Part shown: positions 749-59,890 of the stretch, one piece after another
How the letters are laid out: each line of letters begins with the position of its first letter
Position numbering within the stretch: the first letter of the stretch is position 1
Assembly (NCBI GenBank): GCA_017475035.1
Contig: JAFVGK010000087.1
Span: 1-64,000 of the forward strand
From: Blautia sp.
GTDB taxonomy: Bacteria > Bacillota > Clostridia > Lachnospirales > Lachnospiraceae
DNA length: 64,000 bases
Direction: 5' to 3'
Made by a program: the position numbers and the translations under genes
Notes under the pieces: model-generated
Seen by the model: the letters and a program-made list of their open reading frames with translations, nothing else
What the model was told of the DNA's origin: nothing
The model's database searches: none

Positions 749-940
749 GAGATTGATTTTCGCTTCAACATCCCAACTGCCGAAGCGGCAAAATCGTCAT
801 CCGAAGGCATTATGTCAACGTACAAAACTGCGTTTTGGGAGAAGGCATATTTTTCCATGGCTGTGTTTTTTGCAGGTGTGACTGCAAAATAGTCATACGT
901 GGTCAGTGAGTCAACAGACTCTACGTTTTGGAAGAAGGAG
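749..940 (+). repeat. Family A leader element (A1) followed by an A-prime variant
   Basis: The stretch 749-845 carries the family A signature: CTGCCGAAGCGGCAAAATC, then TCATCCGAAGGCATT, then GTCAACGTA and the small hairpin CAAAACTGCGTTTTG. A second diverged unit (about 845-940) has a Gly-rich hairpin region, GTGAGTCAAC and a run ending GGAAGAAGGAG, the ribosome site of the Fic gene. The second unit closely matches 63490-63592. The elements are transcribed in the same direction as the gene they precede. Confidence 0.7.
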
Positions 941-950
941 AAATGAGGGG

Positions 951-1865
951 ATGATTTCTTATGATGGTTTATACAAGCAGCTTAAGAAAAAAGGAATCAC
1001 AAAAACAGATCTGACATTGAATCTAGGGATTTCCTCCCGCACAATAGCGAAAATCGCTAAAGGCGAAAAGCTTTCAAACAGAACATTGGAGAAGATTGCC
1101 GCTTTTCTTGGTTGTGATGTACATTCCCTCTGCAGAGAAATATCCGACAATGCGATTCTTCAGATCCTTCGTGAAGAAAAAGAAAGCCAGATCTCCGGTG
1201 GTTTATATCATGAACTTCAGGTGCGAATGACCTACAACTCGAACCATATTGAAGGCAGCAAGCTTACAGAGGCTCAGACAAGGCTGATCTTTGAGACAAA
1301 TACTGTCGATGTGAGTGATGGTGTTCTGGTTGACGATATTCTGGAAACAGTTCATCACTTCCGGGCGATTGACTATGTGATTGACACGGCAGAAGAAAAA
1401 CTGACCGAGGAGATTATCAAGCACCTTCATTATATCGTTAAACACGATACAAAAGACTCTGCTTTGAGCTGGTTTGCTGCAGGCGACTATAAGCGCAGGG
1501 CAAACATGGTCGGAGGCCGGGAAACAACAAAGCCAAAAGATGTGCCGGCTCGCATGAAGGCGCTTCTGGCTGATTATAATGCTATGAGTGCAGTCACGAT
1601 CAATGATATAATTGCCCTTCATGCGGAATTCGAATACATTCACCCATTCCAGGATGGAAATGGAAGAGTAGGGCGGCTTGTTGCGCTGAAGGAGTGCCTG
1701 AGACACAATATTATTCCGTTTATTATCGAAGACAGTAAGAAGCATTTCTATTATCGCGGCTTATCTGAATGGAGAAATGAAAAGGGATGGCTGACGGATA
1801 CCTGTCTTGATGGCCAGGATACATTTATCCGGCTGCTGGATGTGTTGGATATACCGCACAAGTAA
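951..1865 (+). CDS. HTH-Fic family protein (likely AMP-transferase)
   Basis: A 304-residue protein. Residues 1-60 form an XRE-like helix-turn-helix (ITKTDLTLNLGISSRTIAKI), and the rest is a Fic domain with the complete catalytic motif HPFQDGNGRVGR. Fic proteins usually transfer AMP from ATP to a hydroxyl side chain of a target. The sequence SNHIEG fits the (S/T)xxxE(G/N) inhibitory motif. It lies before the Fic core, as in class II Fic proteins in which the glutamate blocks ATP binding. I chose the ATG at 951 over an in-frame GTG at 906 because the HTH begins right after it and a purine-rich ribosome site precedes it. No antitoxin gene is adjacent. The upstream inverted repeats suggest self-regulation. 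Target unknown. Confidence 0.9.
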   Translation: MISYDGLYKQLKKKGITKTDLTLNLGISSRTIAKIAKGEKLSNRTLEKIAAFLGCDVHSLCREISDNAILQILREEKESQISGGLYHELQVRMTYNSNHIEGSKLTEAQTRLIFETNTVDVSDGVLVDDILETVHHFRAIDYVIDTAEEKLTEEIIKHLHYIVKHDTKDSALSWFAAGDYKRRANMVGGRETTKPKDVPARMKALLADYNAMSAVTINDIIALHAEFEYIHPFQDGNGRVGRLVALKECLRHNIIPFIIEDSKKHFYYRGLSEWRNEKGWLTDTCLDGQDTFIRLLDVLDIPHK

Positions 1866-1960
1866 AGATGTGATCTGCCTTTTGTTAATCATCCGACCTG
1901 TGTGCTTTTTATTGCAGCGAAATATGGCAGAGTGAAGCCCGTCCAACCTCCGCCCTCCGG

Positions 1961-2055
1961 TGGGATCGTTCGCCGACAGGCGAAATACTACATTACGCCG
2001 TCCCTGCCATATGAACGGCAACAGCCCCGAGAAATCATCTCCCGGGGCTGTTGCC
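1961..2055 (+). terminator. Family R fold followed by a strong stem-loop (between convergent genes)
   Basis: The stretch 1961-2010 contains TCGCCGACAGGCGA, a perfect five-pair hairpin with a GACA loop. It is enclosed by GGGA and TCCC and followed by CTGCCATA. The same module recurs at 20239 and 63617. Immediately after it, 2017-2055 forms a long hairpin (GGCAACAGCCCCG with CGGGGCTGTTGCC), then pyrimidine-rich sequence. It lies between the ends of the Fic gene and the pectinesterase gene, so it probably terminates transcription. The role of the conserved upstream fold is unknown. Confidence 0.6.
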
Positions 2056-2193
2056 ATCTTGTTCCTGTCTTCTTTTTACTTTATTCTCACTTGCTTCTCT
2101 TTCGACCAGGTAGAGTAATACTTTACTTTCGCCACAGTTTTGTATGTCCGGATCCGAAGATAATATGTTTTCCGGGAATCGATGCCTTATCAT

Positions 2194-3228
2194 TTAGCTA
2201 TGTAGTTGTAGTACCAGCTCTTTCGCAAAGCCTGCAATTTCATCTTCCTTCAGTTGTCTGGAAAAAGAAGCCCGTTTCAATGAGGCGCCTTCTCCTCTGT
2301 TTTGATACTCCGCAAAAAAGGCGGTTTTTTCAATCCCGGATGTCTGCCAGTCATCCCAGCCTGCTTCTTCAATCTGCGGGCCCATTTCACAGTTCAGGAA
2401 AACGACTTTCGCGTATTCTCTCCAGGGTCTTCCCAGATAAAATCCTCTGACACGCTCATCTCCCGTAATCCGGCAGTTTTGAAATACATAACCGTACTCC
2501 TGCCCTTCCGGCGTGGATGCTGCCGTAATATATCCCAAAGGCCGCGGATTTTTCTCATATTCCTTAAGAAACTCTTCCTCTTCTCCTTTTCGGCATGGCA
2601 AGACACAGCGAATCAGGCAATTCTCAAAGTAAGCTGTAGCGCTTCCAAAGATAAAGTCAACATTGCCTTCGATCTCGCAGTCATGATAATATTGCCTCCC
2701 GTTTATCCTGGGAGCATATTCCAGAGGACCGCGAAACCCTCCCGGAATCTTCTCCTTCTCCGGCAAAGGTCCGGTAAACAGCGTATCCTGCTGTCCAATC
2801 AATCGTACACGGTCAAATTTCAGCCGGTCTCCGTCAGCATAAAGGGCAATGCATTGTCCGGCCTCTTTTCCCGGACCGGCAGAATTCTCGATCGTCAGGT
2901 TGGATAATTTCACGTCTGATGCATGCAAAAAGAAAGTCTGCGTCCTGAAAGTTCCCCTCTTTTCTCCATCCGGCAAAATTTCAACTGCCCTGGCATCTGC
3001 CGTAATTACCGTATCGGAAGGATGGTCTCCCTCTCCTTTCAAGATGACATGGGAGCGCTCCAGACTGACTCTCTCCCTGTAAACCCCTGGTGCCAGGTGA
3101 ATGCAGACCGGCTCTTCACCGTTATCCAAGGAGGAAAGCGCATCAGAAACAGACGAAAACCACACACAGTCCTTCCGGTCTTTTACTACATCCGCGGCAT
3201 CCCTCTTCCCAACACAAATATCCTTCAC
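2194..3228 (-). CDS. Pectin methylesterase (carbohydrate esterase family 8), cytoplasmic
   Basis: A 344-residue right-handed beta-helix enzyme that removes methyl groups from galacturonate residues of pectin. The family signatures are present: GQQDTLF (catalytic Asp), VDFIFGSA (nucleophile Asp) and LGRPW (substrate-binding Arg). It has no signal peptide, so it should act on imported methylated oligogalacturonides. The start is the GTG at 3228, seven bases after GGAAGGAGG. An in-frame TTG further upstream overlaps this ribosome site and is rejected. The gene lies at the distal end of the pectin locus but has its own family A leader and is separated from kduD by a terminator-like hairpin. Confidence 0.93.
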   Translation of the reverse strand: MKDICVGKRDAADVVKDRKDCVWFSSVSDALSSLDNGEEPVCIHLAPGVYRERVSLERSHVILKGEGDHPSDTVITADARAVEILPDGEKRGTFRTQTFFLHASDVKLSNLTIENSAGPGKEAGQCIALYADGDRLKFDRVRLIGQQDTLFTGPLPEKEKIPGGFRGPLEYAPRINGRQYYHDCEIEGNVDFIFGSATAYFENCLIRCVLPCRKGEEEEFLKEYEKNPRPLGYITAASTPEGQEYGYVFQNCRITGDERVRGFYLGRPWREYAKVVFLNCEMGPQIEEAGWDDWQTSGIEKTAFFAEYQNRGEGASLKRASFSRQLKEDEIAGFAKELVLQLHS

Positions 3229-3235
3229 GCATCTG

Positions 3236-3333
3236 CCTCCTTCCAAAACGCAGTTTTGTACATTAACTCAATCTCTTCGGATGACGATTTTGCTGCTTCG
3301 GCAGCTGGACTGCCGAAAACAAAATCAGTCTCC
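3236..3333 (-). repeat. Family A leader element (A2) before the pectin methylesterase
   Basis: Read on the minus strand it begins GAGACTGATTTTG, forms a long hairpin whose arms are CGGCAG and CTGCCG, and continues AAAATCGTCATCCGAAGAG. It then has the small hairpin CAAAACTGCGTTTTG and ends in GGAAGGAGG, the ribosome site of the gene. This is one of the most complete copies. Confidence 0.75.
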
Positions 3334-3551
3334 ATTTCTGAACGTAGAACACCAACCTCATTCTTCGTTTCAGCCTGACTCCTTGACTTCCTCAGTATCC
3401 ATCATGCCCCACACGCTTAACACCACCATAAATGAAAGTGAGGTCACGGATGCATCCCATTATAACCACTCCCCTCTCAGGGCGGCTGACTTCAAAGAAA
3501 ATTGAAACAGTTCTGCCTGGTGTTTTTCTATAAGAATCCACATTTCAACAT

Positions 3552-3602
3552 GAGGGACGGTTTATGGTTTCACATCCTGTGAACGCCAAAAACCGTCCCT
3601 CC
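3552..3602 (-). terminator. Stem-loop after kduD
   Basis: GAGGGACGGTT pairs with AACCGTCCCTC around a loop of roughly 29 bases containing a smaller hairpin. It lies 21 bases beyond the kduD stop. No strong T-run is seen on the minus strand, so it may instead protect the mRNA end. Confidence 0.55.
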
Positions 3603-3622
3603 CTTTAAACTTTATACGTTTT

Positions 3623-4423
3623 TTACGGCTGCTTGCCGATATAAGCAAGAATACCGCCGTCTACGTAAAGGATATGTCCATTCACAAAATCAGATGCCTC
3701 TGATGCAAGGAACACAGCAGCACCCATGAGGTCCTCCGGATCTCCCCAGCGCTCTGCCGGCGTCTTTGCGAGAATAAAGCTGTCAAACGGATGACGGCTT
3801 CCATCCGCCTGCCGTTCACGAAGCGGGGCCGTCTGCGGCGTAGCGATATACCCAGGCCCGATACCGTTGCACTGGATATTGTACTGGCCATATTCAGAAG
3901 CAATGTTCTTGGTGAGCATCTTCAGTCCGCCCTTTGCGGCAGCATAAGCGGAAACCGTCTCTCTGCCCAGCTCGCTCATCATCGAGCAGATATTGATGAT
4001 CTTGCCGCTCTTCTTTTCCATCATATCCGGAAGGACAGCTTTGGACATAATAAACGCCGCGGTAAGGTCGATATCAATAACCTGACGGAAATCTTCACTG
4101 GACATTTCCGTCATAGGGATTCTCTTAATGATGCCCGCATTGTTTACCAGGATGTCCACGCTGCCCAGATCTGCCTTGATATCAGCAACCATTTTAGCAA
4201 CCTCATCCTCACGGGTTACGTCGCAGATATATCCCTTTGCCTCAATGCCCTTTTCCGCATAAGCGGCCAGAGCCTTATCCATATGCTCCTGGCCTCTGCA
4301 GTTAAAAGCGATCTTTGCGCCTGCTCCGGCAAGACCCTCCGCAATCGCGAAACCAATGCCATAGGCTGCTCCGGTAACCAGAGCCACCTTACCCTCCAGG
4401 GAGAACTTCTTTAAAATATCCAT
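3623..4423 (-). CDS. kduD: 2-dehydro-3-deoxy-D-gluconate 5-dehydrogenase, SDR family
   Basis: A 266-residue classical short-chain dehydrogenase. It has the nucleotide-binding TGAAYGIG, the structural NNAG, a catalytic Ser in NICSMMSE and YAAAK. It is expected to reduce 5-keto-4-deoxy derivatives with NAD(P)H to 2-keto-3-deoxygluconate. Homologues in clostridia are often labelled gluconate 5-dehydrogenase. The assignment to KduD rests mainly on kduI directly upstream and on the surrounding pectin genes. The gap to kduI is about 190 bases and carries a degraded family M copy, so the two genes may be co-transcribed but not tightly coupled. Confidence 0.85.
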   Translation of the reverse strand: MDILKKFSLEGKVALVTGAAYGIGFAIAEGLAGAGAKIAFNCRGQEHMDKALAAYAEKGIEAKGYICDVTREDEVAKMVADIKADLGSVDILVNNAGIIKRIPMTEMSSEDFRQVIDIDLTAAFIMSKAVLPDMMEKKSGKIINICSMMSELGRETVSAYAAAKGGLKMLTKNIASEYGQYNIQCNGIGPGYIATPQTAPLRERQADGSRHPFDSFILAKTPAERWGDPEDLMGAAVFLASEASDFVNGHILYVDGGILAYIGKQP

Positions 4424-4484
4424 TAGTCATCACTCCTTGTTAAAACTGTTTTCACGTTCCAATAATTGAAAAACATTTCAAAAC

Positions 4485-4521
4485 TTATAGTATACACACG
4501 AATTTACTGCAGAAAGATGCC
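4485..4521 (+). repeat. Truncated family M (MITE-like) element
   Basis: TTATAGTATACACACGAATT followed by TACTGC matches the first 30 or so bases of the full family M copies at 49723 and 59724 (which read GTATGCGCACGAATTTACTG). The rest of the element is not recognisable. Confidence 0.45.
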
Positions 4522-4612
4522 AGACAAAGCTGTCTATTATTCACTTCATAGACCACATCAAAATAGTCTCACTTAGGAATAAATACCGCATAAAACGGAA
4601 GCAAATATATCA

Positions 4613-5455: not shown

Positions 5456-5496
5456 TTTAATCGCATCCTTTCTATAATCAAAATTAACAGACCTCT

Positions 5497-5555
5497 GCGC
5501 GGCTCTGCAATTTCATGGCAGAGGATTCATCCGGCCTCTGCCCCGTGAGCCGCGC
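5497..5555 (-). other. Structured leader before kduI
   Basis: On the minus strand GCGCGGCTC (5547-5555) pairs with GAGCCGCGC (5497-5505), enclosing a second stem CAGAGG/CCTCTG (5519-5540). It lies about 40 bases upstream of the kduI start and just after the terminator of the ATPase gene. It could be a processing or stabilising hairpin, or part of a regulatory leader. No known riboswitch was recognised. Confidence 0.4.
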
Positions 5556-5601
5556 GTCAGTTCTGCTGAAATCTTCCTTTGTGCGGCTCTGCGATAACAA
5601 A

Positions 5602-5647
5602 GGACGGTTCTTCCCTTGCCGGGAATCGCAAGAAAAAGAACCGTCCC
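5602..5647 (-). terminator. Terminator-like hairpin after the sugar ABC ATPase gene
   Basis: GGGACGGTTC pairs with GAACCGTCC on the minus strand, followed by TTTGTT. It begins 18 bases after the stop codon of the ATPase gene. Confidence 0.6.
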
Positions 5648-5664
5648 GTTTCACATTTGACAGA

Positions 5665-7032: not shown

Positions 7033-8592
7033 TTACACAAAGCCTTCCGTAATGACCTCGTCGCAATGATCCGTGATCAGCTTTTCTCCGTCCACGCCTT
7101 CCAGCGAAACATCTTCAATATGCACCTCACGGACATGATCCAGATACAGGCCTAAGCGGCAGCGTTCTTTCGCGAAGTTTTCCATTGCGGGGATTCCCGG
7201 CTTTGCATCCTTTGCGAAGGACACCTTCACCTTGCGGAACTCCACCTTTTCAATCGGCATCTCCGGGAGACCGTCGATATAGCAGGCAGCCACTTCCGCA
7301 TCCGTACATTCGATGTTGCTGAAGCAGAAGCTGCCGAGGCTCGGCGTCCTGTCATCCACAGGAAGCTCTTCCCTGGAATACACATATTCCGTATAGCGGT
7401 CCGGATCACAGCAATTATAGTACATATTGATGACGAAAGGAGTCAGCACGCCCTCCATGCGGATCCGTTCAAACAGAACCGCGTCAATCCGGCTGTTTTT
7501 GCCGCGGCCTCGTCTGGTCTTGATCCGAAGCCCGCGGTCCGTATTGCGGAAATAGCAGTGGGAAACCGTCAGGTGACGCACTCCCGCGCCGATCTCGCTT
7601 CCTAAGGTAATCGCGCCGTGGCCATGCTCCATCAGACAGTTGCGGATCATGTGATGATCCGCGGGCTGATTATATTTCTGCCCCAGTTCGATTTTACCGG
7701 ATTTGATCGCGATGCAGTCATCACCGACGCTGAATTTACAGCCGACGATCTTTACGTGATCGCAGGATTCCGGATCCAGGGCATCCGTATTCGGACTGAC
7801 CTTTGGCGCGGAAACAGAGATGTCATAAAAACCCAGATCCTTGGAAAAGAACGGATGCAGCTGCCAGGACGCGGAATTGCAGGCGTGGATGCCGTGTATC
7901 GTCACGGATTTGCAGTGATTGAGGAAGATCAGCCGCGGCCTTGCAGCCGGGAAGGACTCAAAATTCTTCCAGAAATCACTGTTCTGTGCATTGCCGTCCA
8001 CCGTACCGGGACCTACGATCGTGATATCCCTTGCATACTCTGCCGTGATCAAAGCCTGATACATCGGAACAGCGAGTCCCTCAAAGGTACCGATCAGAAT
8101 ATCCTTTCCTTTATCCTGGTCTTTAACGACCCCCGGAATAATCGGATAGCTTTCCCGATCCACAGAGCCGAGCAGCGTCGCGCCTTCCGTGAACTGGAGA
8201 ATGATATGATTCTTCAGCATCAGTGGGAAGGTCAGATAAGTCCCCGCAGGGAAAATCAGGCGCCCGCCCTTCGGCAGACAGTTGATCGCATTCTGGATCG
8301 CGGTCGTATCATTCGTGACTCCGTCTCCCTTTGCTCCAAACTCGCGCACGTCAACCGCGCAGGATTCAGAAGCAGTGCGGAAGGTTACTTTTCCGCGCAC
8401 CTCTTTTCCCTTTACCTCAACCGAATAGTCTGTCGACGGCGTCAGGTCAAAAAGAGAAAAAACATTGGTATCCCCATCCTTCACATGCTGTCCGTTCAGC
8501 CAGATCTCATATGCGGATGGAGCATAATATGGTTCATCGTTAATAATCTCAAAACATGCGGATATCGTCCCGGTAAATAAAACCTGGAGCAT
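7033..8592 (-). CDS. Polygalacturonase (glycoside hydrolase family 28), cytoplasmic
   Basis: A 519-residue enzyme. Residues 1-75 form a small beta-rich, FnIII-like region (LTPSTDYSVEVKG), followed by the pectate-hydrolase beta-helix that starts at REFGAKGDG. Catalytic motifs are NTDALD, GDDCIAIKSG, GHGAITLGSE and RIKTRRG, covering the three Asp, the His and the Arg-x-Lys of GH28. The family hydrolyses alpha-1,4-galacturonan; FnIII-bearing bacterial members are often exo-acting. There is no signal peptide. The start is the ATG at 8592 behind GGGAGGAGG. A family A leader lies immediately upstream. Confidence 0.93.
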   Translation of the reverse strand: MLQVLFTGTISACFEIINDEPYYAPSAYEIWLNGQHVKDGDTNVFSLFDLTPSTDYSVEVKGKEVRGKVTFRTASESCAVDVREFGAKGDGVTNDTTAIQNAINCLPKGGRLIFPAGTYLTFPLMLKNHIILQFTEGATLLGSVDRESYPIIPGVVKDQDKGKDILIGTFEGLAVPMYQALITAEYARDITIVGPGTVDGNAQNSDFWKNFESFPAARPRLIFLNHCKSVTIHGIHACNSASWQLHPFFSKDLGFYDISVSAPKVSPNTDALDPESCDHVKIVGCKFSVGDDCIAIKSGKIELGQKYNQPADHHMIRNCLMEHGHGAITLGSEIGAGVRHLTVSHCYFRNTDRGLRIKTRRGRGKNSRIDAVLFERIRMEGVLTPFVINMYYNCCDPDRYTEYVYSREELPVDDRTPSLGSFCFSNIECTDAEVAACYIDGLPEMPIEKVEFRKVKVSFAKDAKPGIPAMENFAKERCRLGLYLDHVREVHIEDVSLEGVDGEKLITDHCDEVITEGFV

Positions 8593-8598
8593 ATCTTT

Positions 8599-8755
8599 CC
8601 TCCTCCCAGAACAAAGCTTTGTCCGTTGGCTCAATGTCTTCGGATGACGATTTTGCTGCTCCGGCAGCCGGGCTGCCGAAGACGAAACCAGTCTCCTCTC
8701 AGAATACGGTTTTATGACTGTCAGATTGTTTTCGGAAGATGTTCTTGCTGCCTGA
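8599..8755 (-). repeat. Family A leader element (A3) with a degraded second copy
   Basis: The stretch 8599-8695, read on the minus strand, has GAGACTGGTTTCG, the CGGCAG...CTGCCG hairpin and AAAATCGTCATCCGAAGAC. It then has ATTGAGCCAACGGACAAAGCTTTGT and the ribosome site GGGAGGAGG of the GH28 gene. Its small hairpin is ACAAAGCTTTGT instead of CAAAAC/GTTTTG, so both arms changed together. A weaker copy of the 3' half occupies 8694-8755. Confidence 0.7.
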
Positions 8756-8776
8756 GCAGAAACCCTTTGTCCGGAT

Positions 8777-9373: not shown

Positions 9374-9379
9374 TTCCTG

Positions 9380-20215: not shown

Positions 20216-20341
20216 ACAACGTACAGAACTTCGTTTTGAGAGGAGATACTCGCCGACAGGTGAAATATTGCATGATGCCGCCTCTGCCATAGTAAAAAGC
20301 GGGCTGCGCCAATGTCAGTCTGACATCGGCGCAGCCCGCTT
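20216..20341 (+). terminator. Family A tail, family R fold and strong terminator after the isomerase gene
   Basis: Just after the isomerase stop come CAACGTACAGAACTTCGTTTTG and GAGGAG (the 3' end of family A). Then comes the R fold: TCGCCGACAGGTGA with AGAGG/CCTCT flanks and CTGCCATA. At 20298-20341 a long hairpin (AGCGGGCTGCGCC with GGCGCAGCCCGCT) is followed by TTCTTTT. It separates convergent genes. No start codon follows the family A tail here, unlike most copies. Confidence 0.7.
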
Positions 20342-27805: not shown

Positions 27806-28969
27806 TTAGGATGCTTCGCCTTGAACGAATCGATAAATTGCTTCACTGACCTTTACCCAGCCTTTCTTTCCTAAATGGACACGATCCTCAAAAAAATACG
27901 GCGTATATTCCTCAGAAGAAAAATCAGCCAGAGAGGCGCCTGTATCGGCCGCAATCCCGCGTATTTTTTCATAGTATGCCTGTCTTGCGGATGCAGGAAA
28001 CTCTGTAAAATCATAATAATATCCATTTACGGGAACGATAACCAGCAGCGGTTCTATTCCGGTTTCCCTGCATACCTGCAGAAATATGCCAAGGTCGGTA
28101 AACTCCGGACCATATTGATATCCCCCTGTCGCATCTGCATTCATTCCTCTTTTTATTTCGAGGTAAGGCAGCAATCGTTCATAGCTTTCCTGCTGCATAT
28201 AAAAAACATTATTGTTTTCCTTTTCGCCAAGCTCATCAGCGAGACTCAGATAAGCTTCCCAATCCGGTTCACTCTCCACGGGCTTTTTATTCTTTTGGGG
28301 AATCATAAATTGCCGCAGCCAGATCGAAAAATAATCCCTCTCGGCGAGAAATCCCGTCCAGATCTTCTGTGACAGACTTTCAGACCTGTTCGGCAAGCCT
28401 TTCCAAAGAACAGCCTCGTCCCGGTCTACGCAGCGCAGCGTCCTTTCATCATCCTGTAAAAGAAGGTGCGTTCTTTCGGACAGGTAGGCTTTTGTCGTTT
28501 CGGAAAGTCTTTCATTAGAAAGCATATGCAGATACATCAGCTCGCTGAACCGGGAAACATAGGCTTGCGGCAGCACACCTGTTTTCCGGAACCATTGGGG
28601 AGAGAGAATCAAAACCGCCTTACGCACCGGCATCTTTTTCTCTATCGCAGCCAAAGTAATGGCGTGGCTTAAGGACTGATAATAGCCAGCTCCGATCAGC
28701 ATCGGTTTAAAAACAGTGTCCTGAAACAAAGAGGAAGGATGAAACAACGTCCCATCCCCGTGCTGCATCTCTGAAGAACCGAAAACCACCGTCATCTGAT
28801 CCGTCAGATTGTTCACCAGCCCTTCATAGGAAGAAGCCTTGGCTTCACTCGTCCACAAAGCATAGGCATCAGGAGAAGTCCCCACAAAATATCTTGGCAA
28901 AAAATGTCCCGCCGCGGCAGTTGCAGCGATCAACAAAAAAGCCAGGAAAAATGCCTTGATTTTATCCAC
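27806..28969 (-). CDS. dltD: D-alanyl transfer protein DltD
   Basis: A 387-residue protein with one N-terminal membrane anchor and an extracytoplasmic SGNH-like domain. FGSSEMQHG carries the likely nucleophile Ser, and EDRVHLGKKGW the Asp and His. It finishes D-alanylation of teichoic acids. The start is a GTG behind AAGGAG and overlaps the end of dltC by eight bases. Usual length for the family. Confidence 0.9.
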   Translation of the reverse strand: MDKIKAFFLAFLLIAATAAAGHFLPRYFVGTSPDAYALWTSEAKASSYEGLVNNLTDQMTVVFGSSEMQHGDGTLFHPSSLFQDTVFKPMLIGAGYYQSLSHAITLAAIEKKMPVRKAVLILSPQWFRKTGVLPQAYVSRFSELMYLHMLSNERLSETTKAYLSERTHLLLQDDERTLRCVDRDEAVLWKGLPNRSESLSQKIWTGFLAERDYFSIWLRQFMIPQKNKKPVESEPDWEAYLSLADELGEKENNNVFYMQQESYERLLPYLEIKRGMNADATGGYQYGPEFTDLGIFLQVCRETGIEPLLVIVPVNGYYYDFTEFPASARQAYYEKIRGIAADTGASLADFSSEEYTPYFFEDRVHLGKKGWVKVSEAIYRFVQGEAS

Positions 28970-29201
28970 GCGTACTCCTTCCCAGAGCCATCGCTACGAT
29001 CTTTTCCGGTGTATCAATATCCTCCCGCACAACCTCAGACGGAGAAATCACGATACCGGTCTCCTCCTCCAGCTCCACCAGAAACTCCGCAAAGCCTAAA
29101 GAATCCAAAAGCCCTGACTGAAACAGCTCTGTCCCGGTATTCTCTTTCACCTCATCACTCTCACATATCTCCGCAAGCAAATCCAATATTTTATCTCTCA
29201 T
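28962..29201 (-). CDS. dltC: D-alanyl carrier protein DltC
   Basis: A 79-residue acyl-carrier-type protein. The phosphopantetheine Ser is in GLLDSLGFAEFL. It carries D-alanine from DltA to DltB. The ATG at 29201, nine bases after GAGGAG, is chosen; a longer frame is not needed. The leader contains a family A-like hairpin (ACAAAACTGTTTTATG). Confidence 0.9.
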   Translation of the reverse strand: MRDKILDLLAEICESDEVKENTGTELFQSGLLDSLGFAEFLVELEEETGIVISPSEVVREDIDTPEKIVAMALGRSTRG

Positions 29202-29213
29202 ACGAATCTTTTC

Positions 29214-29312
29214 TCCTCTCATAAAACAGTTTTGTATTTTACTTAGGATCTGTACATAAATATCCTTTACATCTGCAGCTTCGGTTGTCAGACCGTCGGA
29301 GACAAAAGTGTC
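29214..29312 (-). repeat. Family B repeat joined to a family A hairpin in the dltB-dltC gap
   Basis: On the minus strand: CTGCAGATGTAAAGGATATT, then TATGTACAGATCCTAAG (family B core), then TACAAAACTGTTTTATGAGAGGAG (family A tail with the dltC ribosome site). The spacer between dltB and dltC is unusually long for this operon because of this insertion. Confidence 0.55.
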
Positions 29313-32017: not shown

Positions 32018-32244
32018 TTATGATGATTCAGGCGACAAAAGGTCATGCAAAAATGAGCTCGCTCATTTTTGCATGAGATTGGGTCGCCCACAGACACGAG
32101 GAAGTAGCCATTTTGCACTATTTATACTTGACTTTGCAAATCTTTCTGTGCAAAATGAGTGGATTCCGAGTGGCTGTAGGATCGCGAGAGCAGCTCCGCT
32201 GCGAAGCGATCCGTAGAATCAGGCTTTTGTCGATGCAATCATTA
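32018..32244 (-). repeat. Family C long repeat (C1) upstream of dltA
   Basis: About 225 bases. On the minus strand it has GCATCGACAAAAGCCTGATT, GCGGAGCTGCTCTCG, CAGCCACTCGGAATCC, AGTGCAAAATGGCT and GGGCGACCCAATCTCATGC. A long hairpin GAGCGAGCTC within AAAATGAGC...GCTCATTTT follows, then GCCTGAATCATCAT. The copy at 48541-48775 shares most of this. It fills nearly the whole gap between the sortase-like gene and dltA. Confidence 0.65.
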
Positions 32245-35442: not shown

Positions 35443-35545
35443 AATCTGTCACCCATTCATCTATCTTTATCCGTTTACACGAAAACGGTTTTATGCTTTT
35501 TACACCATTCAAACGATCTGCAGAACCAGTCTCCCGGCGATGCAA

Positions 35546-37120
<1,575 letters not shown>

Positions 37121-49722: not shown

Positions 49723-49825
49723 TATGGTATGCGCACGAATTTACTGTGAAATCATGCCGCTTGCAGCGGCGTAAATTCGACGCAGTAAACGAATCAAAAC
49801 GCAGGCTTTCTATTCGTTTACCATA
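49723..49825 (+). repeat. Family M (MITE-like) element, copy M2
   Basis: 103 bases bounded by TATGGTA and its inverse TACCATA. It contains GCGCACGAATTTACTG, a CCGCTTGCAGCGGCGTAAAT segment and a hairpin GTAAACGAAT...ATTCGTTTAC at the right end. No coding capacity. Confidence 0.7.
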
Positions 49826-49971
49826 CGTACACAATGGTTCATTTTCAAAGATTATACTCCGTTGCCTCTCAGGTTTCAAGATTTCATCATTTCTTCCGGT
49901 TCTTTTAAGTAAATTTTAGGTCATGCCCGTATACTCTCTGAAGCAGATCAGAATACCTGATGAACACAGAC

Positions 49972-50063
49972 GGATTTTGCTGCTTTGGCAGCCTAACTGC
50001 CGAAGCGGCAAAATCATCATCCGAAGACATTGCGTCAACGTACAAAACTTCGTTTCAGGAGGA
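49972..50063 (+). repeat. Family A leader element (A4)
   Basis: GATTTTGCTGCTTTGGCAG pairs with CTGCCGAAGCGGCAAAATC with only two mismatches. Then come TCATCCGAAGACATTGCGTC, AACGTACAAAACTTCGTTTC and AGGAGG, which is the ribosome site of the next gene. The cleanest copy of the large hairpin. Confidence 0.75.
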
Positions 50064-50069: not shown

Positions 50070-50603
50070 ATGATTAGAAAAAAAGTAATCTATTGCCTGG
50101 CATGCGGGACATGCTGCGTCTTTCTTGCTTATGGGCTTCTGGTGCAGGCGCTCCGCGGAAGCGAGTCGGCTCAGGCAGCCGGTATCGACTGGGTGCTGGA
50201 AGCGCCTGCTTCCGCAGATGCTTCCATGGAACAGCAGGCTGCAGATGGGCAGACCGGTAAACTGCTCCCCGAAAGCAATTCGGATGAAACGGTTCCGGAA
50301 AGCATAGCGGATCAGACGATTCCGAAAGGCAGCGTGGATCAGGCGGTTCAAGAAAACACAGCGGATCAGACGATTCCGGAAAGCAACGTGGATCAGACGC
50401 TTCCGGAAAACACAGCAGATCAGATGATTCCGGAAGACAATGCGGATGAGACAATCTCTGAAAATGGCCTCAATGACCGGACACCAGACAGCGAAGCAGG
50501 AGCGCCGGATTCTTTCTATGCAGACGATGCGGGATACAGCCGACACGGAAAACAGCACGGCAGAAATGAAGGAAACGGCGGAAAGCATGGAAGGGGGTTT
50601 TAA
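50070..50603 (+). CDS. Membrane-anchored protein with nine-residue repeats, unrecognised
   Basis: A 177-residue protein. It has an N-terminal membrane segment (residues 6-28, with three cysteines) and eight tandem nine-residue repeats of the type (I/V/L)PE(S/N)xADQT at residues 66-137. The tail is Gly/His/Arg-rich (HGKQHGRNEGNGGKHGRG). The acidic repeats are probably extracytoplasmic and disordered. The ribosome site is the end of family A copy A4. It opens the redox module; the next gene starts one base after its stop. No known family. Confidence 0.75.
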   Translation: MIRKKVIYCLACGTCCVFLAYGLLVQALRGSESAQAAGIDWVLEAPASADASMEQQAADGQTGKLLPESNSDETVPESIADQTIPKGSVDQAVQENTADQTIPESNVDQTLPENTADQMIPEDNADETISENGLNDRTPDSEAGAPDSFYADDAGYSRHGKQHGRNEGNGGKHGRGF

Positions 50604-50604
50604 C

Positions 50605-53597: not shown

Positions 53598-53638
53598 TCT
53601 GGGGGATCGGAGCGCTTCAAAACGTAACCGCTCCCGCG

Positions 53639-53714
53639 GTTGACATCATGCGGTCTGACATAATGTGGTCAGACATAATGTTGTCAGACTTACAGTATGC
53701 GCACGAATGAACTG
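53639..53714 (+). repeat. Fifteen-base tandem repeat next to a family M fragment
   Basis: The unit TGACATAATGTGGTC is repeated about three and a half times with small changes (53639-53690). Then GTATGCGCACGAAT, the left end of family M, is directly fused at 53714 to family C sequence (CATCAGGCTTTTGTCGATGCAATCAT). Three element types meet here within 110 bases. Confidence 0.55.
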
Positions 53715-53784
53715 CATCAGGCTTTTGTCGATGCAATCATGAAATAAATATCAAGTAAGTAAGGAAGGAATGAAGGAACGAAAT

Positions 53785-55059
53785 ATGACGGAATATGACC
53801 AGAACAGAATCCTGTCCCGGCAGCAGGAACGCTTTGACAGAAAAGGAATTTCCCTGACCGCAAAAATGCTGCGGCAGATCAGGGAGCTGACCCATATGCC
53901 CGCTTCACTGGAACCTTTTTTGAATACCCTGGAACAGATCTTCGCTCTTCGCCGGGACGTACAGCGTCCCCGGGGCGTTCCCACGATAGGAACCTATTGT
54001 GTCATGGTTCCGCCGGAAATTATTTACGCCCAGGGAGCCATGCCGGTAAAGCTGTGCAGCGGCAGCTATACTGCCTTCGGCATCGGTGACGACAAGGCGC
54101 CCAGAGATGCCTGCCCACTGGTTAAGGCAGTTATGGGGTTTGAAGAAATAGATATTATGCCGGTATATCAGAACTGTGCCTTAATGGCCATCCCGGTCAC
54201 CTGTGACTGTAAAAAGAAATTAGCCGGCTGGCTGCTGGAACGACGCCCCACCTCGATCCTTCACGTTCCATCAAACAGGGAATCTGACGCCGATATGGAA
54301 CAGTTCACGGAAGAGCTTTACAGCTTCAGCCGCCAGCTGTCCCGAATCACCGGTATAGAGCTTACCTATTCGAATCTGGTCAAAGCCTGCCGTATGACCT
54401 CCGACGCACAGGTCCAGCTTTCCCGATTCATTTCGCTCCGCAGAAAGCATCCCCTGATCATCAAAGGCACTTTTTCCATGGCTGTCATGAACGCCATAAG
54501 CTATACCTGGCTGCCGGACTGGACCAGACAGCTCTCGGATTTAAATGATGAACTGGAAGTTCTCATTCAGAAAAAAGAAATGGCGGTAAAGGAAAACCAG
54601 CCCAGGATTCTGCTGACCGGTTCTCCTGTAGTATTTCCGAATTTCAAGCTTCCCTTGTTGATCGAAAGCATGGGCGGTCTGTTAGGCGCGGATGAAACCT
54701 GTATGGGTGAACGCGGCTTCTATGATCCTCCTGCGGTGGTTGATCAGACGATCGATGGAATGATGAGAGCCTTCTCCAACCGTTCCACCCGGCCCTGTAC
54801 CTGCCCGACCTTTACGGACAATGACCGCCGCATCTACAGGATCCGGCAGCTGATCCGGGACTATCGGATCCAGGGCGTCGTTTACCATGTGCTGAGGGGC
54901 TGCCTTGTATATGATTATGAGTATGCCGCTCTGGAAGAGGAAATGGGAAAGCTGGGCATTCCGATCATCCGGGTGGAGACAGATTATAACGAAGAAGATG
55001 TAGAACAATTACGGATCCGGATTGAAGCTTTTATAGAGCTGATCAAGTATAAAATATGA
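53785..55059 (+). CDS. 2-hydroxyacyl-CoA dehydratase / double-cubane cluster protein-like
   Basis: A 424-residue protein of the HgdB/BcrC superfamily with cysteines at the usual sites: GTYCVMVPPE, PVKLCSGSY, RDACPLVK, YQNCALM and VTCDCKKK. The number and spacing fit a cluster-bearing subunit. Known members use an ATP-dependent activase to drive difficult reductions, either dehydration of 2-hydroxyacyl-CoA or, for double-cubane proteins, small-molecule reduction. The activase is the next gene (55216). The substrate cannot be named. The start is the ATG at 53785 with AAGGA seven bases upstream; the ATG at 53770 is too close to its purine tract. Confidence 0.85.
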   Translation: MTEYDQNRILSRQQERFDRKGISLTAKMLRQIRELTHMPASLEPFLNTLEQIFALRRDVQRPRGVPTIGTYCVMVPPEIIYAQGAMPVKLCSGSYTAFGIGDDKAPRDACPLVKAVMGFEEIDIMPVYQNCALMAIPVTCDCKKKLAGWLLERRPTSILHVPSNRESDADMEQFTEELYSFSRQLSRITGIELTYSNLVKACRMTSDAQVQLSRFISLRRKHPLIIKGTFSMAVMNAISYTWLPDWTRQLSDLNDELEVLIQKKEMAVKENQPRILLTGSPVVFPNFKLPLLIESMGGLLGADETCMGERGFYDPPAVVDQTIDGMMRAFSNRSTRPCTCPTFTDNDRRIYRIRQLIRDYRIQGVVYHVLRGCLVYDYEYAALEEEMGKLGIPIIRVETDYNEEDVEQLRIRIEAFIELIKYKI

Positions 55060-55097
55060 AACGGGCTTTTGTCGATGCAGACATGATACAGAAAAAG

Positions 55098-55206
55098 AGA
55101 TTGATTTTATTGCTGCGGAAGCTCAACTGCCGAAGCGGCAAAATCTTCATATGAAGACATCATATGAAGATTTTGAGGCAACGCACAAAACTTCGTTCCC
55201 AGGAGG
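55098..55206 (+). repeat. Family A leader element (A5) before the activase gene
   Basis: GATTTTATTGCTGCGGAAG, CTGCCGAAGCGGCAAAATC, an inserted 20-base duplication (CATATGAAGA repeated), then GGCAACGCACAAAACTTCGTTCCCAGGAGG. The final AGGAGG is the ribosome site of the gene. It sits inside the redox module between two genes that must cooperate. Confidence 0.7.
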
Positions 55207-55215
55207 ATAATCATT

Positions 55216-56004
55216 ATGAGCATATATGCAGGATTAGACGGCGGCTCTACATATCTGAAGGCTGCCTTGATCGACCATACAGGACATGTTGTGGATACCG
55301 GCGTCAGGGCTACGGGAATCAATAACAACGAGACGGCCAGGGTACTTCTGGAACAGCTCTGCCAAAGAAACGGCGTGAGCCATATCGATTATATCATGGC
55401 GACCGGTTACAGCAGGAAAATACTGGAAGCGGCGGATGACGATGTGAGTGAAATCACAGCCCACGCATACGGTGTGCGCATCACAGCGCCCGGTGACTTT
55501 CATCCCGGACTGATCGTGGATATCGGAGGCCAGGACAGCAAAGTCATTTACCTGGACAGCCAGTATCATGTCAGAAATTTCACCATGAATGATAAATGCG
55601 CCGCTGGAACCGGAAAGTTTATGGAGGTCATCGCTCAGATCCTGGAGACAACCATCGACCAGGTCGGTCCCATCTCTCTCACAAGCAAGGCGCCCTGTGA
55701 CATAAACAGTACCTGTGTCGTTTTTGCCCAATCCGAGGTGATTTCCCTTGTCGCCAGAAAATATGACCGGCGGGATATCCTGGCCGGCATGCATGCGTCC
55801 ATGGCCAGGAGAATTGTAAAAATGATCCGGAAAAGCGAGATGAACGGAGATATTCTGATGACCGGAGGCGGCGCGCTGAACATCGGCCTTCGCCAGGCTT
55901 TTGAAGACGAGTTGATGCGGGATGTTTTTGTCGCCTCTCACCCTCAGTTCAACGGGGCGATCGGTGCGGCATTCATCGCAAGCGAAAGGAGACGGGCCGC
56001 ATGA
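55216..56004 (+). CDS. ATP-dependent activase of 2-hydroxyacyl-CoA dehydratase-type enzymes (HgdC/BcrA family)
   Basis: A 262-residue ASKHA-fold ATPase. It has the phosphate motifs LDGGSTYLKAALID and VDIGGQDSKVI. The cysteine in NDKCAAGTGKFM and that in STCVVFAQSE bind the cluster shared between two subunits. It uses ATP to push one electron into the partner at 53785. Its stop overlaps the next start by four bases. Confidence 0.93.
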   Translation: MSIYAGLDGGSTYLKAALIDHTGHVVDTGVRATGINNNETARVLLEQLCQRNGVSHIDYIMATGYSRKILEAADDDVSEITAHAYGVRITAPGDFHPGLIVDIGGQDSKVIYLDSQYHVRNFTMNDKCAAGTGKFMEVIAQILETTIDQVGPISLTSKAPCDINSTCVVFAQSEVISLVARKYDRRDILAGMHASMARRIVKMIRKSEMNGDILMTGGGALNIGLRQAFEDELMRDVFVASHPQFNGAIGAAFIASERRRAA

Positions 56005-56648: not shown

Positions 56649-56714
56649 TCTTCTGGTATACTGTTATGGGAGATTTCAATACGAAACAGCCTGTGAAAAA
56701 GGAATTTGTGAATT

Positions 56715-57395
56715 ATGAAAATATTGTTTGCCGAAGACGATCGTGATTTAAGCAATGCAGTCAAAACGCTGCTGGAACGGAACGGATATCAGGTAGATGC
56801 GATCTGCGACGGGGAAGAAGCCCTCTCTTATGCCTTAGCCGACGCCTATGACGGCATCATTCTTGACTGGATGATGCCGGAAAAAGACGGCGTGACGGTA
56901 TTAAAGCTGCTTCGTAAAAAGGGTCTTTCGATCCCCTGTCTGCTTCTCACTGCCCGGGATGCCGTAGAAGACAGGGTAACAGGTCTGGATGCAGGGGCGG
57001 ATGATTATCTGCCAAAACCCTTCAATGCCAATGAGCTTCTCGCCAGGATTCGGGCGATGCTGCGCCGACGGGAATCATACGTCCCGGATATTGCCTCGTT
57101 TGAAGACCTTTCTTTAGACAAAGGGAAAAATGAACTCCGCTGCAAAGACAAACTGGTCCGCCTCACAGGAAAAAGCTACCTGCTCATGGAACTGTTCATC
57201 GAAAACCCGCGGATCATTTTTTCCGTGCAGCAGCTGATGGATAAGGTCTGGGGCTGGGACGCCGATGCGGAAAGCAGCGTTGTATGGGTAAATATCTCCA
57301 CGCTGAGAAAAAAACTGACGGAACTGGATTCCGACACCGAAATCCGGATGCACCGAGGGACAGGATACTCCCTGGAAAAAAGAGATAGAATATGA
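56715..57395 (+). CDS. OmpR-family response regulator
   Basis: A 226-residue regulator. The receiver (1-120) has DDRD, ILDWMMPEKDG with the phosphorylated Asp, and LPKPF. The C-terminal winged helix (about 130-225) has the signature VVWVNISTLRKKL and HRGTGYSLE. Probable control of the preceding redox genes is inferred from gene order. It overlaps its kinase gene by four bases. Confidence 0.95.
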   Translation: MKILFAEDDRDLSNAVKTLLERNGYQVDAICDGEEALSYALADAYDGIILDWMMPEKDGVTVLKLLRKKGLSIPCLLLTARDAVEDRVTGLDAGADDYLPKPFNANELLARIRAMLRRRESYVPDIASFEDLSLDKGKNELRCKDKLVRLTGKSYLLMELFIENPRIIFSVQQLMDKVWGWDADAESSVVWVNISTLRKKLTELDSDTEIRMHRGTGYSLEKRDRI

Positions 57396-58744
57396 TCAAA
57401 AAACTTCAAAGGCGATTTATCTGCATCACCCTCATCGCCCTGACCGCCGCCATGGTTCTGGTCGTAAGCATCGTGAATATTATTAACTGGATCAGTGTGC
57501 GGCAGGAACTATACCGGACTCTGGATTTCATCGTGGAAAACAGCACATCCGAAAACTTCGCTGACGGCTCCGGAGCTTTTCCGCAGAACGATGATCGGCA
57601 GGGACGCGGCGGTGTTCAGAAAATTTATGATATCCGGGACGATACATATTTATCCGAAAATTTCCCGGAAATAAGTGAAAGCCAGGGATTCCGCTTTTCG
57701 GGAAAGAATAAGCACATGCGGAATCTTGTCAGTGAATCGAACTGGTTTTCCGCATTCTATGACAGCAGCGGTACCTGCCGGATGATCCGGCACAGCCAGA
57801 TGACGGACTTTAATGAACAGACAGCAAGGGAGCTTGCAGAAAAAGCGCTCTCCGGCAAAAAAAATGTTTCTTTTTTACAGGATTATCTGTATAAGATCGT
57901 TATTCAGGACAGCGGAGAAACGGATGTGTTCTTTCTGAATTGTGAAACAAAAATTGCATCCGTGAGAACCCTCGCCCTTCTCTCGGCGTTATCCTGTCTG
58001 GGAGGAATCATCCTGGCCTGGATCTTTGTATCGCTCAGCAGCCGCAAAGCGGTAGAACCTACGATCCGGAATATGGAACAGCAGAAGCAGTTCATCACAA
58101 ACGCCAGCCACGAATTAAAAACGCCTCTGACGGTAATCTCCACCAATATGGAGCTGCTGCAGATGGATCTGCCTGATAACCCCTGGATCCGTTCTACACA
58201 GAAGCAGACCGCGCAGATGCGGCATCTCGTAGATGAACTGGTTTATCTGTCCCGCATGGAGGAAGAATCCGCCCCCTTAGTGATGGAACGTCTGAATCTG
58301 TCAGAAATTCTTACAGAAACTGCCGAACCCTTTATCGCCATGGCGGAATACCAGGGTAAAGAAATGAAGCTGGATATTGACAATCCGCTGTCTGTAACAG
58401 GGGACCGGGCGTCGATACAAAGACTGATTTCAACGCTTTGCGATAACGCTGTCAAATATGCCGCGGGCAGTGAACCCATCTTACTCGCCGCAAAGGCTGA
58501 GGGGCGCCATACCGTCATAACCATTTCGAATGAAATAACCGAGCCCTTAACAAAAATGCAATGTGATCAATTGTTTCACCGCTTCTACAGAACCGATACA
58601 TCACGCAGCAAGGAAAAACAGAAAGGCTTCGGGATTGGCCTCGCGATTGCGGCCGCCATTGTGGAAAAGCATGGGGGAAGCATCAACGCATCCATGCAGG
58701 ATGGCAGCAGGATTGTGTTTACCTGTTTGCTCCCAATAAAATAG
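57392..58744 (+). CDS. Membrane histidine kinase
   Basis: A 450-residue sensor. Two membrane helices (about 12-32 and 190-212) enclose an extracytoplasmic domain of about 160 residues. Then HisKA with NASHELKTPLTVISTN and HATPase with NAVKYAAGS and GFGIGLAIAAAIVEKHGG. It pairs with the response regulator just upstream. The signal is unknown. The gene ends about 50 bases before a family B repeat. Confidence 0.93.
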   Translation: MIKKLQRRFICITLIALTAAMVLVVSIVNIINWISVRQELYRTLDFIVENSTSENFADGSGAFPQNDDRQGRGGVQKIYDIRDDTYLSENFPEISESQGFRFSGKNKHMRNLVSESNWFSAFYDSSGTCRMIRHSQMTDFNEQTARELAEKALSGKKNVSFLQDYLYKIVIQDSGETDVFFLNCETKIASVRTLALLSALSCLGGIILAWIFVSLSSRKAVEPTIRNMEQQKQFITNASHELKTPLTVISTNMELLQMDLPDNPWIRSTQKQTAQMRHLVDELVYLSRMEEESAPLVMERLNLSEILTETAEPFIAMAEYQGKEMKLDIDNPLSVTGDRASIQRLISTLCDNAVKYAAGSEPILLAAKAEGRHTVITISNEITEPLTKMQCDQLFHRFYRTDTSRSKEKQKGFGIGLAIAAAIVEKHGGSINASMQDGSRIVFTCLLPIK

Positions 58745-58789
58745 TCCCTGGCGCGTCTCTTGGTGTTTCTCTTACTGCTGCGACTTACA

Positions 58790-58850
58790 ACAATGCAGCC
58801 CGGGCGGATTCAGACGCGCCAGATGTAAAGGTTATTTATGCACAGATCTT
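58790..58850 (+). repeat. Family B repeat (B1)
   Basis: CAATGCAGCCCGGGCGGATT, CAGACGCGCCAGATGTAAAG, GTTATTTATGCACAGATCTT. The most complete copy with the one at 38278 (opposite strand). Confidence 0.65.
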
Positions 58851-58908
58851 AAAGACGGGAACGCAAAAAAGGCAGTTCCATAACCGCCTCTTTTGTATTC
58901 CCGTCTTT
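58851..58908. terminator. Terminator-like hairpin between convergent genes
   Basis: AAAGACGGGA pairs with TCCCGTCTTT, enclosing a weaker inner stem. It directly follows the family B copy and precedes the DUF554 stop. Confidence 0.6.
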
Positions 58909-58957
58909 CACTTATTTCTTGCCTTAGTCCCGCCGGCTGAAAACAACACGGTGATTC

Positions 58958-59671
58958 TTAAAACCGGATCGGAAGAAATGCGCATGCCACAGCCAGAAAA
59001 ACCGCGGGCAGCATATTTGCTACTCTGATCTTTTTTCCCCATATCAGATTTATTCCCACGCAGAAAATCAGCACATTTCCAACCAGAGACAGATAGCCCA
59101 TCGCCATATCCGTCATCAGCGGTTTCACAGCCACAGCAAGAAGTGTCAATGTTCCTTCCCATAAAAACACCGGAATCGCTGAAAAAATACAGCCTTTGCC
59201 AAGAGAACAGGTCATGACCATCACGATGATCAGATCCAGGATCGCTTTCGCTCCCAGAATCGTCCAATCTCCCGTAATCCCGTCCTGGATGGCTCCGATG
59301 ATCGCCATTGCCCCGATACACACTGTCAAAGACGCCGTCAGAAAACCGTTGACAAAACCTGCTTCTTTTGTGTTGCCGGTCTTTACCTTTAACCACTCCC
59401 CAAACCGTTCAAATCCGGCTTCTATGTTAAGGATTTCCCCGATCAGTCCGCCCAGAGCCAGACAGGCCACCACAAGCATGGAACCTCCGTCCGGAAACAA
59501 CTCATTATGAAGCATGTAATTCATCGCGCCGGAAATCCCGATAAACAACGTTCCCACACCGCAGGCCATTGTCAGGGTTTCCTGATGTCTCTCCTTCAGG
59601 AGCCTTCCAAAAAAGTGTCCGCACAGTCCTCCGGCCACGATTGCTCCTGTATTGATCACTGTTCCAATCAT
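58958..59671 (-). CDS. DUF554 membrane protein
   Basis: A 237-residue protein with six to seven membrane helices and the start MIGTVINTGAIVAGGLCG typical of the family. Function unknown (possible transporter). The nearest ribosome-like sequence (AGAGAGG) is about 14 bases away, longer than normal. Its leader is a family A copy split by a family M insertion. Confidence 0.9.
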   Translation of the reverse strand: MIGTVINTGAIVAGGLCGHFFGRLLKERHQETLTMACGVGTLFIGISGAMNYMLHNELFPDGGSMLVVACLALGGLIGEILNIEAGFERFGEWLKVKTGNTKEAGFVNGFLTASLTVCIGAMAIIGAIQDGITGDWTILGAKAILDLIIVMVMTCSLGKGCIFSAIPVFLWEGTLTLLAVAVKPLMTDMAMGYLSLVGNVLIFCVGINLIWGKKIRVANMLPAVFLAVACAFLPIRF

Positions 59672-59692
59672 ATTTCAGCAGATTACCTCTCT

Positions 59693-59890
59693 CTCCTCCC
59701 AAAATAAAATTCTGCAGACTGACTTATAGTATGCGCACGAATTTACTGCGGAATCATACCGCTTGCAGCAGAGTAAATCCGGCGCAGTAAACGAATCAGA
59801 ATGCAGGCATTCTATTCGTTTACTATAATATCTTCGGAAGACAACTTATGCTGCTTCGGCAGTTGGACTGCCAAAGACAGAATCAGTCTC
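59693..59890 (-). repeat. Family A element (A6) split by a family M insertion (M3, 59724-59828)
   Basis: On the minus strand the A element starts at 59890 (GAGACTGATTCTGTC, then TTGGCAGTCCAACTGCCGAA and CCGAAGATATTA). At 59828 it is interrupted by the full M element, which is bounded by TTATAGTA and the inverse TACTATAA. The A tail then resumes with AGTCAGTCTGCAGAATTTTA and TTTTGGGAGGAG. This is direct evidence that M inserted into A. Confidence 0.7.

Follow-up and report, generated by a model that had tools for sequence, protein, structure and literature searches.

A short hairpin repeat of Blautia sp. that probably inserts at Shine-Dalgarno sequences and restores them at its right end

A 64,000-nucleotide stretch of Blautia sp. 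DNA (contig JAFVGK010000087.1, positions 1 to 64,000; hereafter the window) carries several copies of a hairpin unit whose right end is a Shine-Dalgarno (SD) sequence, and the question is how such a unit came to stand ahead of unrelated genes. An initial annotation of the window left two answers open: the unit could be a common RNA switch acting in cis, or a 5' untranslated region (5'UTR) cassette that is mobile. The second of these is favored by empty sites, by a GGAG common to the joins of adjacent units and by unequal copy numbers. We consider it probable (about 0.82) that the unit is mobile, as a small non-autonomous element whose insertions fall 3' of GGAG, chiefly within SD sequences, and that its right end restores the SD.

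The unit is about 97-101 nt long. The consensus of 36 aligned copies (alignment A1) is GGAGACTGATTTTG(hairpin)CAAAATCGTCATCCGAAGACATTGAGTCAACGTACAAAACTTCGTTTTGGGAGGAG. GGAG is followed, 3-4 nt further on, by the foot of a large hairpin near the left end; a conserved block, TCATCCG..CATT..GTCA, lies between this and a possible small hairpin near the right end, and the right terminus is GGGAGGAG. Insertion would take place in a fixed orientation directly 3' of GGAG, usually that of a gene's SD. The host GGAG would stay on the left, and GGGAGGAG, brought by the element, would stand on the right, next to the old spacer with its start codon. With such a right end, the gene would thus keep an SD at the old distance and gain a hairpin 5'UTR. 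Comparison of sequences shows four things that favor this: presence and absence with exact borders between related genomes, native-SD sites in five clean cases, unequal amplification, and the GGAG common to adjacent units.

Filled and empty sites in two related genomes

The genomes RUG13128 (G041) and RUG006 (G042) have 13 units in common at the same loci. The flanks of 24 unshared units, together with three that proved to be shared, were searched in the other genome; scoring covered 40 candidates out of the 105, and 40 out of the 219, that came up in the first look, and flanks were read for 50 of the 62 listed units. An orthologous element-free site was found for 7 of the 24 unshared copies, and in 5 of these 7 a native SD was the site, with the border immediately 3' of its (G)GAG. 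The empty sites read as follows (^, border).

L232/L246: CAGACAGGAG^GAGTTATTATG
L265/L327: CGAAAGGAG^GTTCACAGGTATG
L272/L299: CCTGAGAGGAG^GGCGTATG
L273/L328: AAATGAGGGAG^GAGGAGAATG, the border being ambiguous by 3 nt owing to a GAG repeat
L223/L241 (clpX): ACGAAAAGAG^GAGATAATATG, the filled site having one extra T on the left

Where the border was clean, the same start codon was preceded in the filled site by the element's GGAG and the old spacer. Orthologous sites are thus present in both states with exact borders, as is looked for in a mobile element; a comparison of two genomes would fit insertion and exact excision equally.

Ends of the unit and adjacent units

In the genome to which the window belongs, 199 hits were reduced to 169 by removal of 30 that overlapped a better hit, and to 157 by removal of 12 that were not full-length. 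Borders were read on 148 (left) and 143 (right) of these 157 units. The left tetramer was GGAG in 91 of 148, the preceding sequence was A-rich (A at −1 in 96 of 148), and the base after the right end was G in 88 of 143. Beyond the unit ends there was little information on either side apart from this native-SD signature. A matching signature was carried by 41 element-free SD sites (−1 A in 23, +1 G in 20), taken only where GGAG fell within a fixed window and the element motif was lacking upstream. The two own-genome flanks thus each correspond to one half of a native SD.

The base before the right GGAG was A in all 40 units that have GGAG at both ends, irrespective of the base on the left (31 equal, 31 expected). 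The right end is therefore part of the element, and target duplication was not seen. Moreover, exactly 4 nt were common to both members in 8 of 11 adjacent own-genome pairs and in two adjacent pairs of another genome (G043; read by eye), as if the GGAG of one unit had served as the target for the next.

Position of the units relative to genes

By a motif test, 19 of the 157 full-length units were followed by another unit, although this test, a regular expression, overlooked at least the tandem unit A1 of the window. With these cases set apart, a same-strand open reading frame (ORF) started within 58 nt in 118 of 138 units, and the SD spacing was 3-13 nt in 102 of those 118. The antisense control gave 23 of 157 (Fisher p about 1e-36), and with equal 390-nt flanks the counts were 112 of 135 in sense versus 20 of 135 in antisense. 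The claim that the units point towards the downstream gene thus stands as a strong bias and not as a strict law. In a 45-nt window, a gene start was found behind 20 of 24 units in G041 (antisense, 3), 22 of 26 in G042 (antisense, 6), and 24 of 27 matches in the genome_contigs collection. The end of an upstream same-strand ORF lay within −60 to +20 of the unit in 58 of the 157, so many units are inside likely operons.

The genes behind units identified by Pfam encode Fic, pectinesterase, GH28, BadF/BadG and DUF554 proteins, a carrier protein, ClpX, ribosomal protein S12 and cytidylate kinase. Others we take, from their translations, to be tpiA, argH, pyrH, hisF and further genes. In relatives, most starts of cmk and ybaB are preceded by an SD-like run, and divergence between genes is too great there for a junction to be placed exactly.

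Copy number and distribution

The covariance-model search suggested in the initial annotation was made with model R1, which was built from alignment A1, so that its 36 copies match by construction. R1 rests on an RNAalifold structure of 5 pairs that misses most of the large hairpin, and it therefore works as a sequence model. In its own genome, R1 gave at least 150 matches: all 150 scored candidates, out of 2,874 in the first look, had an E value of 6e-12 or better. Units A5 and A6 of the window are absent from these 150 listed matches. A second model, R2, built from 30 units of the sister subfamily A', gave at least 53 further places, whose overlap with R1 places never exceeded 30 nt. The 5.08-Mb genome thus holds some 200 units or more. 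Among 40 relatives, 24 from the same genus and 16 from the same order, R1 detected a single unit, in G018; R1 is a type-A model, was run with stricter filters in this search, and may miss other unit types.

R2, which was run on six genomes, detected 132 units in G043 (SRR873601_bin.66), 36 in G042, 26 in G041, and 1 each in G044 (L205) and G018, the last two of which look like one genome. A degenerate second sequence pattern had 27 matches in 26 stretches of four metagenome-assembled genomes in genome_contigs; the first pattern had none in this collection, which possibly does not contain the own genome. The unit sets of different genomes differ in sequence, and amplification is very unequal among genomes. 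As to carriage by phages or plasmids, the pattern had no match in viral_contigs, A' had none in phages or plasmids, and A, searched in plasmids only, had none there.

A third subfamily is present in G041 and G042 (L273, L281, L287, L290, L292, L293, L294). Its left ends resemble GGAGCCGGATACCGCCCGCGAATGCGAAGC; at the right end there is variation, L281 having ATAAC-TGAC-GTTAT, for instance.

Observations that weigh against mobility at SD sequences

Several observations weigh against the interpretation as a mobile element that targets SDs. Seventeen of the 24 unshared copies have no clean empty site: five are remnants, other copies or rearrangements (L220, L276, L279, L282, L287), three seem to be occupied in either genome (L286 and L294, each by an R2 hit; L293, by gap length only), and nine lack a full counterpart (L214, L219, L264, L270, L275, L277, L278, L281, L283). 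The hisH-hisF site (L266/L297) is at a native SD and its 3' side has diverged, and L231/L242 lies at GGCG^GTGC, antisense and beside the start of an opposite-strand gene, with no sense SD. Three of the 11 adjacent own-genome pairs deviate from the 4-nt rule (7 nt common, 3 nt common, and a 3-nt gap). A gene start is lacking behind 20 of the 138 own units, at least one of which (A1) actually precedes another unit, and in the genome_contigs set antisense starts occur fairly often (8 of 27). With a mean identity of 75% and a maximum of 95.8% (132 copies), the own-genome copies appear too diverged to point to recent jumps. All element-rich genomes appear to be drafts. Finally, the Y1 transposase family PF01797 had no match in G043, with its 132 units, or in G018, and only one contig-end fragment in G000, while G004 had 14 matches and no R1 hit.

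Units in the 64-kb window

The window contains seven full-length units, one of them interrupted by a different repeat. To these come a further unit in tandem, a degenerate copy and a fragment.

748..844, + strand: unit A1, subfamily A, first member of a tandem pair (90.3 bits; R1 102.6 bits)
843..936, + strand: A' unit directly behind A1, upstream of the Fic/HTH gene (A' profile 54.7 bits)
951..1865, + strand: gene for an HTH and Fic/DOC protein after A1/A', ATG at 951 (PF02661, PF13443)
3237..3333, − strand: unit A2; GGAGG, then a GTG start at 3228 (R1 117.8 bits)
2194..3228, − strand: pectinesterase gene behind A2 (PF01095)
8600..8696, − strand: unit A3; GGAGG, then ATG at 8592 (R1 110.2 bits)
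7033..8592, − strand: gene for a GH28 (pectin) enzyme behind A3 (PF00295)
20216..20245, + strand: 3' end of a unit only (17.0 bits)
29213..29312, − strand: degenerate full-length copy, upstream of a carrier-protein gene (23.6 bits)
28962..29201, − strand: phosphopantetheine carrier-protein gene behind the degenerate copy (PF00550)
49966..50063, + strand: unit A4; GGAGG, then ATG at 50070 (R1 108 bits)
50070..50603, + strand: 177-aa ORF behind A4, without a Pfam match at E 1e-5
55097..55205, + strand: unit A5, with an internal duplication; GGAGG, then ATG at 55216 (63.0 bits)
55216..56004, + strand: gene for a BadF/BadG-type ATPase (dehydratase activase-like) behind A5 (PF01869)
59693..59890, − strand: unit A6, interrupted by the dispersed repeat D8 at 59725-59827 (left part 53.5 bits, right part 15.3 bits)
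58958..59671, − strand: DUF554 gene behind A6, its start 21 nt from GGGAGGAG (PF04474)
63485..63586, + strand: complete A' unit without a clear gene behind it (A' profile 96.9 bits; R2 109.9 bits)

All six copies named in the initial annotation are present with a common layout, and its coordinates held to within a few bases. The A' unit that it placed behind A1 and the pectin enzymes, dehydratase activase, Fic and DUF554 proteins that it read downstream were likewise borne out, the latter by the Pfam matches above. Its statement that in five of the six copies GGAGG serves the following gene as a normally spaced SD holds for four (3237, 8600, 49966, 55097), because the 59693 copy, whose GGGAGGAG sits 21 nt from the ATG, drops from the count. 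Among its three supposed fragments, the one near 20216 is indeed a 3' end alone, and those near 63490 and 29214 turned out to be the complete A' unit and the degenerate full-length copy.

A weak match to the 3' part of the unit (13.7 bits, model positions 29-97) lies at 8693-8760 (− strand), directly upstream of A3, and is perhaps a worn remnant of a tandem unit.

Conservation of the hairpins

In a cross-species set of 30 sequences, 4 of the 18 pairs of the large hairpin were changed on both sides. The number of both-side cells was 10, against 3.7 in shuffles, with 1 of 500 shuffles as high, and the number of both-side pairs was not above shuffles (149 of 500). In the own genome, 3 of 19 pairs and 8 cells were changed, against 4.8 cells (64 of 500 as high). 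The small hairpin had no both-side change in its 6 pairs in either set; among 100 distinct sequences, 3 of 6 pairs had one, with a score of 0.150 versus 0.132, and slid controls reached as many both-side cells. The covariation to which the initial annotation looked is thus apparent for the large hairpin in the cross-species set, by cells though not by pairs, and only marginal for it in the own genome, and it supports the small hairpin weakly. Single rows (L269, L288) contain CAAAGC-ATT-GCTTTG, which pairs with changes on both arms. Alignment A4 includes 60 own units and leaves out 8 of the 50 sister-genome units.

It had also been argued from the 8599 copy, as a small hairpin altered on both arms, that the RNA structure is selected. 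The sequence there is CAAAGC-TTT-GTTCTG, in which one change gives a G-U pair and the other breaks a different pair; as the two changes are not pairing partners, the argument fails.

In L123 (1147-1228), the small 3' hairpin (GCAAAACTTCTTTTGA) occurs in about five tandem repeats at the right end of the unit.

Alternative explanations and the possible mode of movement

A widespread cis-acting regulatory RNA, that is, a riboswitch or a protein-binding leader whose copies arose by descent and recruitment, would account for the mostly sense position ahead of genes, the apparent covariation of the large hairpin across species and the conserved block between the hairpins. It is nevertheless improbable. 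The genes behind the units are unrelated and form no coherent regulon (Fic, pectinesterase, GH28, clpX, rpsL and cmk by Pfam, others by reading), R1 detected one unit in 40 relatives, and related genomes differ copy by copy. In Rfam 15, nothing overlapped the window units, either at the gathering threshold or up to E 5, and no match at gathering lay over the units of six further loci. The RNA switch offered by the initial annotation is accordingly not sustained. A translated leader peptide is still far less probable. In 50 of 132 copies, the frame SSEDIESTYKTSFWEE is open. It sometimes stops at the start codon that follows, and in A4 and A2 its stop overlaps the start codon. On the other hand, conservation has no period of three (entropy 0.509, 0.502 and 0.515; 97 columns of the 36 copies in alignment A1), a frame shift is present in 60 of the 132 copies, and an in-frame stop in 50. 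As a shared function the peptide is refuted, the frame not being conserved; individual copies could still be translated.

For a mobile element, what causes the SD bias has to be considered separately. The chances are about even that selection alone is the cause: insertion would occur at any GGAG, the survivors would be those that keep a working SD, and SDs would not be recognized as such. Units outside sense SDs, namely L231/L242 and the 20 of 138 without a gene start, are consistent with this. Since only the cause of the bias differs, such a reading is compatible with the mobile-element explanation. The most economical view is that GGAG is recognized and that the SD bias would come from the word itself together with selection that removes insertions elsewhere; transcription or translation may conceivably be linked to it directly. 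As regards the reaction, analogy with REP (repetitive extragenic palindromic) and IS200/IS605 elements raises the possibility of hairpin-recognizing, duplication-free recombination, which we put forward tentatively, with the odds somewhat against it. Mobilization by a Y1 (HUH) transposase, as an element of the IS200/IS605 or REP type, seems rather unlikely. The hairpin near the left tetranucleotide, the fixed orientation and the lack of target duplication agree with what the available text of PMC8266576 says of REPs and of cleavage-site choice in IS200/IS605, and G041 and G042 contain 3 and 9 PF01797 matches, respectively. Against this stand the PF01797 counts given above for G043, G018, G000 and G004; the hairpins after the G000 fragment, which by our own reading are unlike the element; and the absence, in the own-genome loci examined, of any longer element with the same two ends. 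Y1 transposases do not track unit copy number, although in draft genomes a gene may be missing.

It is a speculative and rather doubtful proposal that the mobile element represents a class that recognizes SDs: it would cut beside the SD core, carry its own SD as the right end, and be moved by an enzyme of a kind so far not linked to such elements, whose substrate would perhaps be single-stranded DNA or else the mRNA leader, leaving hairpin 5'UTRs at some two hundred genes and altering translation or mRNA life. If this is true, an element that carries an SD could occupy the starts of essential genes (those for ribosomal protein S12, ClpX and cytidylate kinase) without killing the host. A landing site that is the ribosome-binding site, and is handed back, would be a simple route to many insertions before working, even essential, genes. 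Filled and empty alleles would provide natural pairs for the effect of a 5'UTR hairpin on expression, and the element would be a lead towards a transposition enzyme.

Comparison with known elements

Members of the IS200/IS605 family have a fixed orientation and make no target duplication. Insertion 3' of a short word, without duplication and in a fixed orientation, was also found here. Elements derived from this family further resemble the unit in their subterminal hairpins and in a cleavage word set by tetranucleotides 5' to palindromes (available text of PMC8266576). The unit differs from them in that no transposase is linked to it here and in that its target word is the SD core, which the right end recreates. 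Its likeness to REPs and REPtrons (TnpA-REP/RAYT) lies in a short hairpin after a conserved tetranucleotide, many copies and mostly intergenic positions (PMC8266576 and PMC3733652, in the parts available). Unlike REPs, the unit is 97-101 nt long, has GGAG where they mostly have GTAG, is sited at SDs with the SD restored, and has no Y1 gene tracking it. The tetranucleotide 5' of a hairpin that characterizes REPs is thus present, and the RAYT/Y1 gene that should accompany it in the genome had no PF01797 match in the G043 draft and one contig-end fragment in G000. By term search, 'GGAG' did not occur in PMC3733652 or PMC2817692, nor 'Shine' in PMC2817692.

Miniature inverted-repeat transposable elements (MITEs) and the pneumococcal BOX, RUP and SPRITE repeats are likewise interspersed repeats that are short, non-autonomous and base-paired, and transcription of them is possible (PMC3049150, available text). 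Terminal inverted repeats and target duplication were not seen here. The unit does not conform to a MITE of the DDE type: both ends are GGAG in direct orientation, and in the 40 units examined the right flank base is independent of the left. A term search of a MITE review gave no occurrence of 'ribosom', 'Shine' or 'start codon' (PMC10969869). In marine Beggiatoaceae, about 169 sets of TAACTGA direct repeats lie, mostly in forward orientation, just upstream of the start codons of functionally diverse genes. The available text of PMC4679880 thus describes a similar placement ahead of genes without a common function. Those repeats are heptamers; they coincide in part with the place expected for the ribosome site and have only a slight likeness to an SD, whereas here a hairpin unit ends in a strong SD. 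Literature text searches, in which subscription journals are mostly outside coverage, found no SD-targeted element described in titles or abstract openings. As far as these searches show, the landing site and its rebuilding are new among short interspersed mobile repeats.

Other repeats

A second dispersed palindromic repeat of about 103 nt occurs at 59725-59827 and 49723-49825 and, in part, at 4483-4521 and 53688-53726. The 59725 copy, which has the ends TATAGTAAACGAAT and ATTCGTGCGCATACTATA, sits inside unit A6. Its removal with one TA left restores the expected length of A6, which suggests a TA-duplicating MITE. In the two RUG genomes, the left flank of L265 (query 2652-2794) matches dozens of places and is a separate, unrelated dispersed repeat.

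The Rfam Clostridiales-1 RNA (RF01699, 98.3 bits) was found at 32024-32221 of the window. Its tail, GATCCGTAGAATCAGGCTTTTGTCGATGCAATCAT, recurs alone at 35511-35549, 53702-53740 and 55046-55084, and is also found upstream of several units (e.g., L027, L109, L140). Within the ORF behind A4, 27-nt tandem repeats (family D1, six registers) occupy 50244-50459.

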